A stretch of DNA of 27,214 bases from a virus, in IMG/VR virus record IMGVR_UViG_3300027976_000172, positions 1 to 27,214 of that record; one strand, given 5' to 3'. The notes under the pieces were generated by a model. It searched no databases. It was not told the DNA's origin and saw only the letters and a program-made list of their open reading frames with translations. A program made the translations under genes and the position numbers. Below are positions 2,520 through 12,965 of the stretch, in pieces; within the stretch, counting starts at the first letter, position 1, and each line of letters begins with the position of its first letter.

Positions 2520-2828
2520 TTATTCAGTAATACCTAAATACCTCAACATTTCATCTCTACCATACACTTGTTCCAATCTCTTAATAACTAACGCTGGATT
2601 TTTTCTCATGTAAGAAATTACGTTTACTGGTACATCATCACTATAAGGCCCGAAAATACCCATTAATTGGTCTTCCCTTTTATATGGTTTGAAAGAACTT
2701 TTTCTGAAATTATTTGATTTTCTTTGTATTTCTCTTTCAGGTGTAGCTTCATTTATAGCATCTACCTTAATAATCTTCTCAACCAATGATTGGATGTCTT
2801 TTTCGTTTAATTTAATTACTTTAGTCAT
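2520..2828 (-). CDS. Unknown 102-residue protein following the prohead protease
   Basis: Not recognised. The start codon overlaps the protease stop in a TAATG junction, implying translational coupling and a linked role. The N-terminus TKVIKLNEKDIQSLVEKIIK is helical with an L-N-E motif, resembling the N-termini of several other small proteins in this window. The middle is basic (KSNNFRKSSFKPYKRED) and the C-terminus helical (NPALVIKRLEQVYGRDEMLR). Position between protease and scaffold in a T4-like head operon suggests a prohead core or virion component, but nothing in the sequence proves it. Confidence 0.7.
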   Translation of the reverse strand: MTKVIKLNEKDIQSLVEKIIKVDAINEATPEREIQRKSNNFRKSSFKPYKREDQLMGIFGPYSDDVPVNVISYMRKNPALVIKRLEQVYGRDEMLRYLGITE

Positions 2829-3556
2829 TATAATATATTGTTTAATTTATCTAACATCGAACCTTCGTTTAATGTCGTATTTTTATTTGTTGATTCAGTA
2901 TATGTTTTTAAATCAGTTTTATCATTAGAAATCCAAGCTCCAGGTGTTGACGGTGATGTAACAATATCCCAACAGATGATTTCAAAGTCGTCTTGTACTA
3001 CATTCTTACCACCTTCTTGTTTAAGTGAACCCACACCTCTTGATGAGATACCAACAGTCCAACCTTTTCTTAACATATTAGCTACCTTATCACCAAGTGT
3101 ACTAACAATACCTTGTTTATGGTAAGCTGGTGTTGTATCCAACTCAATTTCACCCATAAGTGTAACACCTTCCCACCAAGTTTTAGTTATACAATGAGAT
3201 ACTCTTTCACCATCAATGATTGATGACTCTGGATGATTAAGTTCACCAAGAGCTGTTCCCATTTTAATAAATTCTTGATAAGCTATGTTTTGTTGTTCCA
3301 ATACCTTTTTCGGGTAGATTCGACCATTCTTATTCTCGATACCATATTTCTGTAAAACAGCATATAGTATTACTTTGTCCGGTACAGCACCATCCGTATA
3401 TAAATCAGGTGCTTTCGTACCTGAATCGAATTCTCTAAGTAACGCCTCATTAGAACAAGTACCATCAGCACAAGTTAATTTAGGTGTAATAAAACCAGCG
3501 TCATACTCGATAAGAACACCTTTTTTATTTAATTCGTTATTATTGTTTATAAACAT
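2828..3556 (-). CDS. Prohead maturation protease, gp21-like
   Basis: The 242-residue protein carries the blocks typical of T4 gp21-family serine proteases: NKNGRIYP (residues 76-82), GELNHPES with probable catalytic His108, GERVSH (116-121), a GEIELDTTPA strand, VGISSRGVGS with the candidate nucleophile at Ser171/Ser172, then DIVTSPSTPGAW. It should assemble inside the prohead and cleave scaffold, capsid protein and itself during maturation. T4 gp21 is of similar size (about 210 residues). The first 50 residues, including two Cys in CADGTC, are not explained by the protease core. It is followed by an unknown gene through a TAATG overlap and preceded by a CATATTTATA box 13 nt before the ATG. 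Confidence 0.85.
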   Translation of the reverse strand: MFINNNNELNKKGVLIEYDAGFITPKLTCADGTCSNEALLREFDSGTKAPDLYTDGAVPDKVILYAVLQKYGIENKNGRIYPKKVLEQQNIAYQEFIKMGTALGELNHPESSIIDGERVSHCITKTWWEGVTLMGEIELDTTPAYHKQGIVSTLGDKVANMLRKGWTVGISSRGVGSLKQEGGKNVVQDDFEIICWDIVTSPSTPGAWISNDKTDLKTYTESTNKNTTLNEGSMLDKLNNIL

Positions 3557-3621: not shown

Positions 3622-5133
3622 ATGAGTAATAAAGAAATTAGGGTTCAAAAGGTGATAAGTGTACCAAAATCCATTGATAAAATACATGATATTTTCAAAA
3701 AAGATGGGTTTAAGTTATATTTAGTCGGTGGTGCTGTTAGAGACACATTGGTAAATAAATACCCTAAAGATTTTGATTTAGTTACAGATGCGACACCTGA
3801 AAAAATAAAAAGTTTACTACATATGTACCCAACGATTGAGTCTGGTGAACAATTTGGTGTCGTTAATGTTGTAACTGAGGACGACACATACGAGATTGCC
3901 ACTTTCAGGTTTGATATCGGTCGTGGCCGTAGACCTAATTCCGTAGAGTTCACAACCATCGATAAAGATGTGTTAAGAAGAGACCTAACCATCAACGCTT
4001 TATTCTATGATTTAGATACAAAAGAAATTGTTGACTTAGTTGGTGGTATTTCTGATTTAGAAAATGGTATCGTTAGAACGGTTGGTAATGCTGTTGATAG
4101 GTTTGATGAAGATAAATTAAGAATATTAAGAGCGTTACGATTTGCTGGTCGTATTGGTTCGGATGTTGATGATGGTATAGATAAAGCTATTAAACGTGAT
4201 AACACAATCATTAGTGGTGATGGGAAACCATTAGCACAAGAAAGAATTCAAGATGAGTTCATTAAGGGGATTAAACAAGCTAAATCCGTTAAACATTTTG
4301 TTGGGATGATTGAGAAGTATGGTTTATTTCAGTGGATATTTCATGATATGGATGTTAGTGGTGAGATTTTAAATATTAAAAACCCAATTATATTGGTAAG
4401 TTCTATTTTAAGGAATGAGACAGTGGATATCGATAAAAGGTTAACTGGTATATTAAAATTTACTAAGTTACAAGGTAAACAAATTAAGTTTTTGATTGAT
4501 TTCTTTAAAAACGGTACACCTAACACAGCTTACAAATTTAAAGAAAAGGTTAAAACATTGAGTATTGATGGTAGTATAATCCACCACTTTGGTAAACAAA
4601 TGGGGATGAATAAACAATTTATTAAATGTTTTAATAAGTATGAAATAAGTATTGATGGTGATACACTATTTAAACAAGGTTTTAATGGTAGAGATTTGGG
4701 GATTGAAAAAGAAAGACTTGAGACCGAAATATTTAATGGATTATTAAGAAAATCAACAATCAATTACTCAGCGTTGTTATTGGATAACTCATCACACAAT
4801 GATTTATTAGGTGTAATTAAAGAACATTGCCCACAAGTTACTAAAGAGTGGGTGGTTGTAGCTGACCATATGACAATTAACTTAGGGCCATTATTAGGTG
4901 AACAACGTCATCTAATAGGTAATGTTTTTCCTATGACCGTGACACATGTTGGTGGTGACAATAATGTAGTGGCGGTCTTAATACACACCACATCGTTTGA
5001 TGTTAATACACCACATGTTACTCTTTCGGTTGGTCCTAATGGTAAACCTGAAATGTCTAAACAAATTAATAATTGGTTACCTATTAAACCCTTTGAAATA
5101 AAGGGTATGGTGCAAGAAATTTATATCCCATAA
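3622..5133 (+). CDS. tRNA CCA-adding enzyme fused to a C-terminal 2H phosphoesterase domain
   Basis: Residues 1-160 form a class II nucleotidyltransferase head: GGAVRD at 36-41, catalytic pair Asp50-x-Asp52, RRDLTINA at 119-126, and EDKLRILRALRFAGRIG leading into the RNA-binding neck. Residues 230-375 are a helical body. The last 125 residues are unlike CCA enzymes: they hold two H-x-T motifs, HMT at 416-418 and HVT at 465-467, 47 residues apart, the mark of 2H phosphoesterases (2'-5' RNA ligase and cyclic phosphodiesterase relatives). Expected roles are CCA 3'-end synthesis and hydrolysis of 2',3'-cyclic phosphate or related RNA ends, that is tRNA repair. E. coli Cca pairs the same catalytic head with an unrelated HD phosphohydrolase domain. 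The gene is alone on the plus strand and ends at a strong terminator. The fusion is directly visible; the substrate is inferred. Confidence 0.85.
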   Translation: MSNKEIRVQKVISVPKSIDKIHDIFKKDGFKLYLVGGAVRDTLVNKYPKDFDLVTDATPEKIKSLLHMYPTIESGEQFGVVNVVTEDDTYEIATFRFDIGRGRRPNSVEFTTIDKDVLRRDLTINALFYDLDTKEIVDLVGGISDLENGIVRTVGNAVDRFDEDKLRILRALRFAGRIGSDVDDGIDKAIKRDNTIISGDGKPLAQERIQDEFIKGIKQAKSVKHFVGMIEKYGLFQWIFHDMDVSGEILNIKNPIILVSSILRNETVDIDKRLTGILKFTKLQGKQIKFLIDFFKNGTPNTAYKFKEKVKTLSIDGSIIHHFGKQMGMNKQFIKCFNKYEISIDGDTLFKQGFNGRDLGIEKERLETEIFNGLLRKSTINYSALLLDNSSHNDLLGVIKEHCPQVTKEWVVVADHMTINLGPLLGEQRHLIGNVFPMTVTHVGGDNNVVAVLIHTTSFDVNTPHVTLSVGPNGKPEMSKQINNWLPIKPFEIKGMVQEIYIP

Positions 5134-5179: not shown

Positions 5180-5620
5180 TTATATTTTTTTCCGATAAAA
5201 CTTAAAATCCTCATCTGTTTCAAAAACATCATTTATAATCCTAGTGGATATCTCACTTAATGATGGATACAACTCTTCTGAATTAACTGGTACAAATGGT
5301 TCTTTTTGGAATATCGTTAGTTCTACAGACATAAAACTTCTTTTACTAAATGATATACCTGAGGAAGCCATATTAAAGTCAACGATACATTTATCACGAT
5401 AAAACCTTTCGTCCAAACTTAACACCTCAAATAACTTTTGTTTAATTCTTTTTGATTTTTGTTTAATAATGTTGTCGTAATTACTATCATTATTTTCTTT
5501 TGGTTTACCCCATGCTGATATTTGTATATAAATGGATTTTGGTTGTTTGTTATCAACCGTACCTGATACAACATTATACTCATAGGGTAATTTTAATGAA
5601 ATCTCTTTTCCTCTCTTCAT
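5180..5620 (-). CDS. Unknown 146-residue protein
   Basis: Not recognised. The protein is soluble in appearance, with alternating strands (YIQISAWGK, SFMSVELTIFQKEPFVPV) and helices (IIKQKSKRIKQKLFEVL, SLSEISTRIINDVFETDEDF), and no signal peptide or membrane segment. It is the last gene of the minus cluster downstream of the portal and is separated from the preceding gene by a terminator at 5700-5728, so it is probably transcribed on its own. The 130-nt gap before it is T/A-rich and offers no clear promoter. A virion or assembly role is possible from location only. Confidence 0.65.
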   Translation of the reverse strand: MKRGKEISLKLPYEYNVVSGTVDNKQPKSIYIQISAWGKPKENNDSNYDNIIKQKSKRIKQKLFEVLSLDERFYRDKCIVDFNMASSGISFSKRSFMSVELTIFQKEPFVPVNSEELYPSLSEISTRIINDVFETDEDFKFYRKKI

Positions 5621-9609: not shown

Positions 9610-10836
9610 CTAAGGTTTCTTACCTTTATTTTTAAATCCATACATACCACCAAAGACCCAATTATGGGGTGAATCAGCTAATTGTACCCGATTTACTTCG
9701 TTGTTAGCCATATAAAAATCTACGTTTCTAGATAATGTATCAACATCTGTTGAATCAGTACTAGTCACCACCCAACTCCCAACCATCGCCTTAGCTTGTC
9801 CCTTTGATTTTTCTAAATCTTTAAATGAACTCATAGCAACAAATAAAGCCATACCAATTGACATAAGTAAATCATCGTGGTACCCTTTCATGTGGTCGGG
9901 TCTACCATTGATGTATACAAAAGTATCCATCTCCATAAGTGCTCTAGCTGAACGAAGTTTAAATGTATCCATACGAACACCCTTTTCTAATTCCGATATA
10001 ATAAGATTTCTGTTTTTTTGGAAGTTAAGACCTGGTAATTTACCATTATCCATGTGTTTTTGTAGTGACCTATTGTTCTCTAACGCATCAATACCAACCG
10101 TAATATCGTAGTATAGTAATTTTTTAGGGTAACCCAAGTCGATTAGTTTAAGTACTGTTGCTGCACCCCATCCACCTGTAATATCCACAACAATAAAAGC
10201 GTTGTATGAATTACCGTAGTGTGCACACATCTCACCAAGTACATCGGGTGCAACCTTACCTTGGTATTCAGCCACTTGATTACCTGTTGTGTAATCAAAC
10301 ACACATATACCAGCAGCATCCGCCGCTGAACCTGATGAAGCATCCGCCGCTAATATGTATTGATGGTCCTTAATTGGGTCTTCCCATATCCACATATTAC
10401 CATCAAGCCACTCTTTTCTAATTGGGTCTTTAACATTATGTTTTTCCTGTCTCTTGACGTACTTATCATCAATAACGTTATCACCAGAACCTAAAAACGA
10501 ACAATTATGGGTTAATATATTATTTGCGTAATAAAGGTTTCCATCAGCCACCTCTAATAAATCATATACATAATCATTATGTGTGATAATGGTGTTACTA
10601 ACCACTTGGTAGTTGCCATCTTTTGTGGTTAGATAATTTTCAGTGGTTAATTCACCAGATTTTAATAAAACCCCATCATTGGTGGGGTATACATGGTTTT
10701 CAGTTGATTTAATTACCAACCCGTTCTCTAACTTTATTTCATGAACATATTTAGCATAACTCCGTTTAACACCGATGAAATCTTTATAACCACTGTCAGT
10801 TAAAACTTTATATTTAGTATTTTTTTTATTTTCCAT
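9610..10836 (-). CDS. C-terminal split-intein fragment plus nuclease half of TerL (gp17-like)
   Basis: Residues 1-111 are the C-part of an intein: block B TENH at 45-48, block F VYDLLEVADGNLYYANN (90-106) and the C-terminal splice motif THN ending at His110-Asn111, directly followed by Cys112. Residues 112-408 are the TerL C-extein: CSFLGSGDNVID, then the RNase H-fold nuclease with ILAADASSG (Asp165), FIVVDITGG (Asp218) and HDDLL (Asp321/322), equivalent to the acidic triad of T4 gp17. After trans-splicing it would join the N-half at QELL-CSFLGS. The start ATG overlaps the stop of the endonuclease gene by 11 nt. N-extein 324 plus C-extein 297 gives 621 residues, close to T4 gp17 (610). Confidence 0.92.
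   Translation of the reverse strand: MENKKNTKYKVLTDSGYKDFIGVKRSYAKYVHEIKLENGLVIKSTENHVYPTNDGVLLKSGELTTENYLTTKDGNYQVVSNTIITHNDYVYDLLEVADGNLYYANNILTHNCSFLGSGDNVIDDKYVKRQEKHNVKDPIRKEWLDGNMWIWEDPIKDHQYILAADASSGSAADAAGICVFDYTTGNQVAEYQGKVAPDVLGEMCAHYGNSYNAFIVVDITGGWGAATVLKLIDLGYPKKLLYYDITVGIDALENNRSLQKHMDNGKLPGLNFQKNRNLIISELEKGVRMDTFKLRSARALMEMDTFVYINGRPDHMKGYHDDLLMSIGMALFVAMSSFKDLEKSKGQAKAMVGSWVVTSTDSTDVDTLSRNVDFYMANNEVNRVQLADSPHNWVFGGMYGFKNKGKKP
10504..10836 (-). other. C-intein segment (111 residues)
   Basis: This segment holds intein blocks B, F and G and ends His-Asn before Cys+1. Block B normally belongs to the N-part of split inteins, so the break here lies unusually near the N-terminus. 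The layout is like the described AceL-TerL type. Confidence 0.88.
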
Positions 10837-11911
10837 GTATAAAATTAATGCATTTATTAACCATTAAATCTTTATTTTTCTTATAATCACCCTCACTAAC
10901 AACCATAACCTTATAACCTAAATCATCTAATAGTTTATATCGTAAATTATCGGCATCAATCGTTTTATTATGCCAATAATCACCATCAAATTCAATAATC
11001 TTATTACCAACCTTAAAGTCGGGTTTAATACAGTGTTTACCAAGTTTAATTTTATCACTATCACGAAGGTTTATAAAAAACTCACCACCATTAGTTGCGT
11101 AATAAATGTTTTCTGTCACATTTATTCCATCCACCACATCATTAAATAATTCTTGTGATATTTTAGAAAATGTATCTTTAAATAATTTATCGGTGTTTTT
11201 ATGTAACGTGACCATTTTTTTATTATAATATTTAAGGTATTTACCCTCCCACTCCGTACCGTATTTATTTTGGAACCATTCTTTACTATTTGTTTTCGTA
11301 TTACCTAATTTATCACGTCTTTTATCACGGTGTGACATCCAATCATCACCATATTTAAATTTAAAATACTTCTCTGATGGGTATTTAGGTTGACATTGAA
11401 TACAAAACGGTTGGAAATTATTTACATAATCAACATATACTGATTGTTTTTGTTTATATGTAACACCATTCCCACATTCACATTTAATTTTATCTATATT
11501 ACCACCATGTTTAACTAAAAAAATTATTCTAGCCATTATGGATTTACTATTCTTATCTTTTAATTTATCTAAAGATTTTGTGTGTTGATAAACACTGTTA
11601 TATAATAAACCATCACATGACATTAATTTACGATTACCAGACCGACCCATAAAATTAATGTATGTATCGTTATACCCTAATTTATTAATAGTGTCATCCA
11701 TGTCGTAAACACCCATATCATTAACATGTTCTTTAATAGTCTCCCACCCTTTTTTAACGTAGTCAGTTTGTTGTAATTTTAGTTGAGTAACCTTACCCAT
11801 GATTGATGCATATGTACGACCTAAATCGTCAGCCACACACTTTAAAGGTTTATGGTTAACATTTTTTATGAGATATTCAGTATCAACATCCGACCATCGT
11901 TTATAATTCAT
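10826..11911 (-). CDS. Homing endonuclease of the Vsr-like/EDxHD type between the two TerL halves
   Basis: The 361-residue protein begins with a Myb/SANT-like helix-turn-helix (RWSDVDTEYL, then LKCVADDLGRTYASIMGKV) for DNA binding. A C-x-C and C-x2-C pair (Cys144, 146, 170, 173) suggests a zinc-binding knuckle. Two copies of a KYG-[DT]-[DE]-W motif follow. The C-terminus is a PD-(D/E)xK-related nuclease: KPDFKVGNKIIEFDGDYWHN with Glu307, Asp309, Asp311 and His314, then LGYKVMVVSEGDY, matching Vsr-like/EDxHD homing endonucleases. It would cut an intein-less terL and drive copying of the whole insertion. Its start and stop each overlap the flanking terL fragments by 11 nt, so all three genes lie in one transcript. 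Family assignment is by motif. Confidence 0.88.
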   Translation of the reverse strand: MNYKRWSDVDTEYLIKNVNHKPLKCVADDLGRTYASIMGKVTQLKLQQTDYVKKGWETIKEHVNDMGVYDMDDTINKLGYNDTYINFMGRSGNRKLMSCDGLLYNSVYQHTKSLDKLKDKNSKSIMARIIFLVKHGGNIDKIKCECGNGVTYKQKQSVYVDYVNNFQPFCIQCQPKYPSEKYFKFKYGDDWMSHRDKRRDKLGNTKTNSKEWFQNKYGTEWEGKYLKYYNKKMVTLHKNTDKLFKDTFSKISQELFNDVVDGINVTENIYYATNGGEFFINLRDSDKIKLGKHCIKPDFKVGNKIIEFDGDYWHNKTIDADNLRYKLLDDLGYKVMVVSEGDYKKNKDLMVNKCINFIHGK

Positions 11912-12965
11912 TATATAAATCCTCTATTTTTAATTCTTTTATTTCACCAGTGTTGTTATCCATCACTTTAATATAAGTATCACCAACGACACATAAAAGT
12001 TCTTGTGCTATTGAACGGGGATTGTGATTAAGGTCAGAACACATACTTTCAAACCAACCAGATGTTGGTGTAAAACCTTTTTCAATCATATCATCCCAAG
12101 TACTTTCAGGAACCGTACATTCCTTACCAGTATAATGATTAATATCACCACTACATGGGTCAAATATACTCTCAAGTACTTCACCAGACTTTTCATTAAG
12201 TAAATTCCATGTCATCCCATGTGGGAATAAATCATTTTTATTCCTACCATTGTAACGAGGGTCTTCATACCATTTCATATCAACGGTATTGTAGTTATTT
12301 TTCCCTAGTTTAGCTAGTTTATATGTTTTATGGTATAATGGGTCATACCCATTTGGTGTTGAAATTAAAATACATCTACCACCTGTTGATAAAGATGGTT
12401 GTGCTGCTTCATAGAATTCTTCCCCCCTACTACCCTCAATAAACGCTGCCTCATCCACAATTATGATTGATGGTGTGTAACCCCTCAAAGCATCTTTTGA
12501 TGATGCCACGGCCTTTACTTCACTACCATTATGCATTCTATAATGTGAATCCGAATTTTTATCAGACGAAAACCAATCCTTAACATTTGGTGGTCTATAT
12601 ATATCCATCCATTCAGGTAGTTGTCTAGTAAAATCCCTAATTTTCTTAAGAAATTCCTTAGCTGTTTCCTGTTTATTTGCTGCAATTAGGATTTTATGTT
12701 TAGATTTTGGACTAGCTAATGCGGTTAAGACCGCTGCGTAAGCCGCTGTTGTTGTTGATATCCCAGCTTGACGAGGTTTCATCACAATATTGTGTCTATG
12801 GTCAATATAACCATGTACTAGTTCTTTTTGTTTTGGAAACAATGTGAATGGTACCTCACCACCTTGTGTTCTATCTTCAGTGTGTAGGTAACTCTCAATA
12901 GCATATATAGGGTCCTTAAGACACCTAGCTATTTCCAAAAGTTTTTGTCCTTTTGTTAAACTCAT
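11901..12965 (-). CDS. ATPase half of TerL (gp17-like) plus N-terminal split-intein fragment
   Basis: Residues 1-324 are the packaging ATPase: adenine-binding LFPKQKELV region, Walker A KPRQAGISTT (63-72), Walker B IIIVDEAAF (167-175), coupling motif ILISTPNG (199-206), and the terminal SIAQELL that precedes the T4-like cleavage-domain linker. Residues 325-354 are the N-intein: CVVGDTYIKV (block A, catalytic Cys325) through KIEDLYNEL and a stop. Only 30 residues of intein are present, so the gene looks truncated but is not: the remaining intein and TerL half are encoded at 10836-9610. The start follows a GATATTTATA box by 3 nt. TerL powers DNA translocation into proheads and cuts concatemers. 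Confidence 0.93.
   Translation of the reverse strand: MSLTKGQKLLEIARCLKDPIYAIESYLHTEDRTQGGEVPFTLFPKQKELVHGYIDHRHNIVMKPRQAGISTTTAAYAAVLTALASPKSKHKILIAANKQETAKEFLKKIRDFTRQLPEWMDIYRPPNVKDWFSSDKNSDSHYRMHNGSEVKAVASSKDALRGYTPSIIIVDEAAFIEGSRGEEFYEAAQPSLSTGGRCILISTPNGYDPLYHKTYKLAKLGKNNYNTVDMKWYEDPRYNGRNKNDLFPHGMTWNLLNEKSGEVLESIFDPCSGDINHYTGKECTVPESTWDDMIEKGFTPTSGWFESMCSDLNHNPRSIAQELLCVVGDTYIKVMDNNTGEIKELKIEDLYNEL
11904..11993 (-). other. N-intein segment (30 residues)
   Basis: It starts at Cys325 of the TerL N-half with CVVGDTYIKV and ends KIEDLYNEL. From memory the AceL-TerL N-intein also starts CV-GDT and has KIEDLY near its end, at about 25 residues. Confidence 0.88.

Follow-up and report, generated by a model that had tools for sequence, protein, structure and literature searches.

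A viral sequence record of 27,214 bases (hereafter the window, meaning the whole stretch of DNA that was analysed) carries a gene whose product joins a CCA-type tRNA nucleotidyltransferase to a 2H phosphoesterase domain of the CNPase/Trl1 type. The protein is probably a two-activity enzyme of tRNA 3'-end repair, in which end healing is combined with CCA restoration. Many other uncultivated phages, some of them distant, have a CCA enzyme and such a CNPase-like domain either in one polypeptide, as here, or encoded close together; often a phosphatase accompanies them, and in some cases it belongs to the same polypeptide.

The fusion gene and its genomic setting

The open reading frame begins with ATG and has no internal stop; its coordinates, and every motif position named in the preliminary description of this DNA, proved correct. 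An AF2 model of the full-length protein has a pLDDT of 92.3 and a pTM of 0.81. The features are as follows, with the basis of each assignment in brackets.

3622..5133, plus strand: coding sequence, 503 aa, CCA-type tRNA nucleotidyltransferase and CNPase/Trl1-type 2H phosphoesterase (open reading frame; AF2 model)
3622..4746, plus strand: CCA nucleotidyltransferase (head, neck, body, tail), residues 1-375 (PF01743; CCA tree; fold match)
3769..3777, plus strand: motif A, catalytic D50-F-D52 (motif inspection)
3976..3984, plus strand: motif B, R119-R-D121 (motif inspection)
4753..5127, plus strand: 2H phosphoesterase domain, residues 378-502 (AF2 model; CNPase / Trl1 fold matches)
4867..4875, plus strand: first HxT motif, H416-M-T418 (invariant in relatives)
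5014..5022, plus strand: second HxT motif, H465-V-T467 (invariant in relatives)

The T4-like portal, prohead protease and terminase genes of the window all lie on the minus strand. The fusion gene, on the plus strand, is flanked by the prohead protease gene (2828-3556) and by a gene of no assigned function (5180-5620). No tRNA genes are predicted in the window, and no phage record was found to match the window protein over 80% of its full length.

A separate feature of the window is that the terminase large subunit (9610-12965, minus strand) is apparently broken into three open reading frames. The N-terminal part has an intein-like start at its end, the C-terminal part opens with an intein-like end (HINT, '...THNC'), and the frame between them is homing-endonuclease-like (DUF559/MTES_1575). 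This arrangement may represent a fractured split intein whose endonuclease is free-standing.

The CCA nucleotidyltransferase

The intact CCA-type head reported in the preliminary description is borne out by domain match, motifs and fold. The PolyA_pol head family (PF01743) matches residues 32-152 with E=4.5e-36 in Pfam, and all of the class II CCA motifs are present: A (GG-x-[VI]RD, here GGAVRD at residues 36-41, together with DxD), B (RRD, within RRDLTIN at residues 119-125), D (EDxxR) and E (ERI). The full-length model aligns with the CCA-adding enzyme 1miv (Z 27.2, rmsd 4.3 over 360 residues) and with the human CCA-adding enzyme 4x4w (Z 26.9). The window protein groups with phage CCA enzymes in a CCA tree and lacks the poly(A)-polymerase signature, while the NCBIfam models for pcnB (178.7 bits) and for CCA enzymes (PRK13299, 175.9 bits) give near-equal scores that both fall below cut-off. 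Judged from these sequence features, CCA addition is the likelier candidate specificity, ahead of poly(A) addition or of partial (CC or A) addition.

No HD family of Pfam matches the window protein. It had been proposed that the phage replaced the HD domain of bacterial enzymes with a 2H domain, a replacement that is rejected here as unshown: the most similar stand-alone CCA enzymes of phages, about 370-393 aa long, are also without HD, and the 2H domain therefore looks added rather than swapped.

Stand-alone CCA genes have two further features. In L016 (5953-8034), and also in L017, L018 and L019, a 289-aa open reading frame splits the gene into halves; this frame looks like a homing endonuclease broadly similar in type to the one within the terminase, and Rfam finds no group I intron at L016. 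In L008, L013, L022 and others, 7-17 predicted tRNA genes lie near the CCA gene, some with a CTA anticodon; no such array is present in L001.

The 2H domain

Residues 375-503, modelled by AF2 with 61 relatives, give a pLDDT of 94.9 and a pTM of 0.87. The top fold match of this model is the catalytic domain of CNPase (Z 14.0, rmsd 2.1 A, 127 of 129 residues), followed at lower scores by fungal Trl1 (6u05, Z 10.8), Acb1 (8.2) and LigT-like proteins (about 7.5). Residues 378-502 of the full-length model also align separately with CNPase, at Z 13.9. Both motifs fit the pattern H-x-[T/S]-hydrophobic (H416-M-T-I and H465-V-T-L), and H416, T418, H465 and T467 are kept in every relative that covers the site, about 65 in all; a third H-x-T, H455-T-T, is not conserved. 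As modelled, the C-terminal domain is a true, bilobal 2H fold with conserved catalytic residues, and the earlier assignment of a 2H domain with two H-x-T motifs thus stands, the modelled fold being CNPase-like. Two outcomes that the preliminary description had named as contrary to its reading, a fold other than 2H and H-x-T motifs that vary among homologs, were looked for and did not occur.

This identification rests on fold and on relatives, because detection of the window copy by sequence failed: it has no Pfam match to 2H families, PF08302 included, and neither the copy nor its profiles match any PDB sequence. PF08302, the fungal tRNA-ligase phosphodiesterase family, is matched by 54 of the 61 relatives at E<=0.01, some of them above the curated cut-off. 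Homolog P0002, from L001, whose 2H domain has diverged less than the window copy, gives E=0.003.

The fold matches bear on one alternative, namely that the 2H domain degrades nucleotide signals, whether 2',3'-cyclic mononucleotides, 2'-5' oligoadenylate or CBASS-type cyclic oligonucleotides, as Acb1 does, and is merely carried along with the CCA enzyme. Acb1 is indeed a distant fold match, some relatives lie within very long multidomain proteins, and roles as RNase or signal degrader have been proposed for 2H domains of phage polyvalent proteins, versions that have no link to RNA ligases in that survey (PMC5512222). The domain is nevertheless far closer to CNPase and Trl1 than to Acb1, and its partners in other phages are enzymes of RNA ends (kinase, CCA enzyme, HAD_SAK), so that we regard a signal-degrading role as very unlikely.

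Among relatives, the window copy of the domain is divergent. In the 2H tree its end branch measures 1.36, compared with 0.25-0.28 in its sisters; dN/dS in the comparison with L096 is about 0.29 for the 2H part and 0.13 for the CCA part; and the copy departs from otherwise conserved positions (H415 to D, N480 to K). By these sequence measures the window 2H copy is evolving fast. Of the 21 columns with conservation of 90% or more among relatives it keeps 16, and it matches the consensus at 35 of 103 other columns (Fisher p=4e-4); given this difference and the invariance of the HxT residues, the HxT pair exceeds chance. The long branch and the lost conserved residues would suit a 2H domain in decay or with no more than a structural part to play, the work being left to the CCA enzyme; this reading is extremely improbable considering that the four HxT residues are kept, the reading frame is intact, dN/dS is about 0.3 and the fold is confidently predicted.

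The fusion in the window lineage

The same fusion is found in two further contigs of the lineage, L001 (a contig also listed as L007 and L023) and L096. CCA/2H fusions, in either order, also occur in a second, distant group of phages described below. The L001 protein is 64% identical to that of the window overall and 45-46% identical over the 2H part. In L096 the reading frame is broken near its start and the fusion junction is intact. In the next relative, L024, two distinct genes encode the CCA enzyme and the 2H domain, with an overlap of 4 nt. Mis-assembly was considered as the source of the fusion and rejected, as the fusion is in frame in three lineage contigs and separate fusions exist elsewhere.

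Some candidate partners did not turn up in these contigs. A HAD phosphatase was sought in the 27-kb window and in the L001, L096 and L024 contigs, all of them fragments, and none came up, though the search was silent in control genomes too; no related kinase was found in the CCA-linked contigs examined, and no clear RNA ligase in the lineage contigs. The absence of kinase, RNA ligase and HAD from the lineage carries little weight, because the contigs are fragments.

Relatives of the 2H domain

With the 2H domain as the main bait, 84 2H-bearing open reading frames were gathered, near-copies included. Four of these are fused to a CCA enzyme (the window counted), ten have a CCA gene within 500 nt (within 11 nt for eight of the ten), and 42 are kinase-2H fusions with a polynucleotide-kinase-like partner. 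HAD-2H proteins of the same 2H family also occur in other phages. The pairing with RNA-end repair put forward in the preliminary description gains support from the repeated CCA/2H fusion, the gene linkage, and the kinase-2H and HAD-2H proteins.

The kinase fusions also suggest another possibility. As in Trl1, the 2H domain could mend the tRNA halves produced by anticodon cleavage so that a separate RNA ligase can join them, with the CCA part serving mainly for tRNA binding or for independent CCA upkeep. The 42 fusions reproduce the Trl1/CNPase arrangement, and RNA ligases are present in several related contigs. The recurrent neighbours are CCA and HAD genes, not ligases, and the CCA-linked contigs (fragments, as noted) show no related kinase. 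On balance, anticodon healing appears an unlikely function for the window protein, and repair of the acceptor end is preferred.

Two pattern-based, limited contig scans revealed no 2H relatives in bacterial or archaeal genomes. By tblastn, the window 2H domain has no match in cultured phages; another member of the family matches Agrobacterium phage Atu_ph07, crAss-like phages and a few others. The CCA gene of Atu_ph07 lies about 9 kb from its 2H gene, and the 2H gene of a crAss-like phage is near a gene for a TROVE protein. The huge phages L003 and L004 encode a stand-alone CCA enzyme with, within about 1 kb, a 2H-SAK gene (PF22547), which belongs to another 2H family. The 2H domain of L099, L101, L102 and L104 shares its protein with an N-terminal part of about 190 aa. 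The kinase profile used here does not match this part, which has no Pfam match in L104, the one scanned.

A second, distant group of phages

A reverse scan was seeded with the CCA enzyme of the second group, using patterns drawn from the CCA part. A CPD-type 2H domain is present at 38 of the 42 loci recovered, several of which are on near-copy contigs, so that loci are not independent. The layouts include 2H fused after CCA, 2H fused before CCA (L140, L142), abutting genes, and genes within about 4 kb of each other. A second 2H domain, of LigT type, is also fused at several loci (L056, L105, L108-L113 and others). Genes of HAD_SAK type are near CCA/2H at most loci of this group, and in L140 and L142 a single chain reads 2H-CCA-HAD.

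A tree was built from CCA domains, 55 after dereplication. Its well-supported branches require five or more label changes for C-terminal fusion and two or more for N-terminal fusion, changes in which gains and splits are indistinguishable. The fusions of the window lineage and of L105 fall in different, well-supported groups of the CCA tree, and the 2H tree, too, calls for two or more changes of the fusion label.

At L113, L118, L120, L129, L134 and other loci, CCA and 2H domains lie within very long open reading frames (1,300-2,090 aa), the remaining parts of which have no Pfam match in those scanned. These are possibly phage polyvalent proteins.

A proposed pathway of acceptor-end repair

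Where bacterial CCA enzymes carry an HD domain, this domain is described as clearing 2',3'-cyclic phosphates from the 3' ends of tRNA (PMC10673834). A CC end that carries a cyclic phosphate would require resolution before CCA repair, for which CNPase was named as a theoretical candidate in human cells in 2022 (PMC8920990). As CCA enzymes need a free 3'-OH, cyclized tRNA ends should be dead ends unless they are opened.

In the proposed pathway, a metal-independent RNase would trim the tRNA acceptor end and leave a 2',3'-cyclic phosphate. The C-terminal CNPase/Trl1-type 2H domain would open this phosphate and free the 3'-OH, and the N-terminal CCA nucleotidyltransferase could then restore whichever part of the tail had been lost (A, CA or CCA). 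A phosphatase may clear the leftover phosphate, possibly the HAD-type enzyme of many relatives. The CNPase and Trl1 CPD class of 2H enzymes leaves a 2'-phosphate; for this reason the window phage would need a CCA part that tolerates 2'-phosphate or the assistance of another phosphatase. We infer the substrate, the order of the steps and the benefit to the phage (the undoing of host tRNase damage), as well as a role against host defence.

Counting for tRNA 3'-end repair are the two folds, the invariant HxT residues, the recurrent CCA-2H(-HAD) linkage and the kinase-2H proteins, the last of which have the arrangement of tRNA-healing enzymes. Counting against it are the 2'-phosphate expected as product with no HAD gene in the lineage contigs, the fast evolution of the window 2H domain, and the lack of tRNA genes in the window. 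A literature search for defence RNases that cut acceptor ends gave nothing.

More broadly, and more tentatively, phages may carry a dedicated acceptor-end repair cassette of CCA enzyme, CNPase-type 2H domain and HAD phosphatase, whose parts were fused repeatedly and in either order. If so, this would imply host defence or toxin RNases that cut the CCA end of tRNA and leave a 2',3'-cyclic phosphate. Damage and repair of the acceptor end in phage-host conflict become directly testable, and the predicted RNase activity is worth seeking.

Comparison with known systems

The component families are known; neither the fusion nor the recurring CCA-2H-HAD linkage was found in the literature searched, which does not extend to a principal 2016 article about RNA repair in biological conflicts. 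In jumbo phages, CCA-adding enzymes and 2H phosphoesterases are both known and have been assigned to tRNA repair, and the passages of the survey that were consulted treat them as separate enzymes, with no CCA-2H fusion or CCA-2H-HAD cassette (PMC7824862).

Among the Swiss Army Knife proteins of RNA repair (HAD_SAK, 2H-SAK), HAD_SAK_1 is fused or adjacent to the same 2H family in L082, L070, L140 and L142, whereas the window 2H domain itself matches the CNPase/Trl1 type and not the Pfam 2H-SAK model. The fold and the two HxT motifs are common to the window domain, CNPase, the fungal Trl1 CPD (PF08302) and the lancelet PNK/CPDase, and the PNK-CPDase architecture has its parallel in related phages, where members of this 2H family are fused to a kinase. 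The phage domain has about 125 aa, fewer than the roughly 205-215 of its counterparts, and its partner in the window protein is a CCA nucleotidyltransferase rather than the kinase or ligase of those systems.

A close parallel in design is provided by HD-bearing bacterial enzymes such as E. coli Cca and M. tuberculosis Rv3907c, which, like the window protein, combine a class II CCA enzyme with a second domain known or predicted to resolve 2',3'-cyclic phosphates at the 3' ends of tRNA. The second domain of the window protein is of the unrelated 2H fold with paired HxT motifs, without HD, and no fused phosphatase activity is expected of this protein. The analogy to HD-bearing Cca drawn in the preliminary description is nonetheless supported, and the window protein is best read as their probable phage counterpart.
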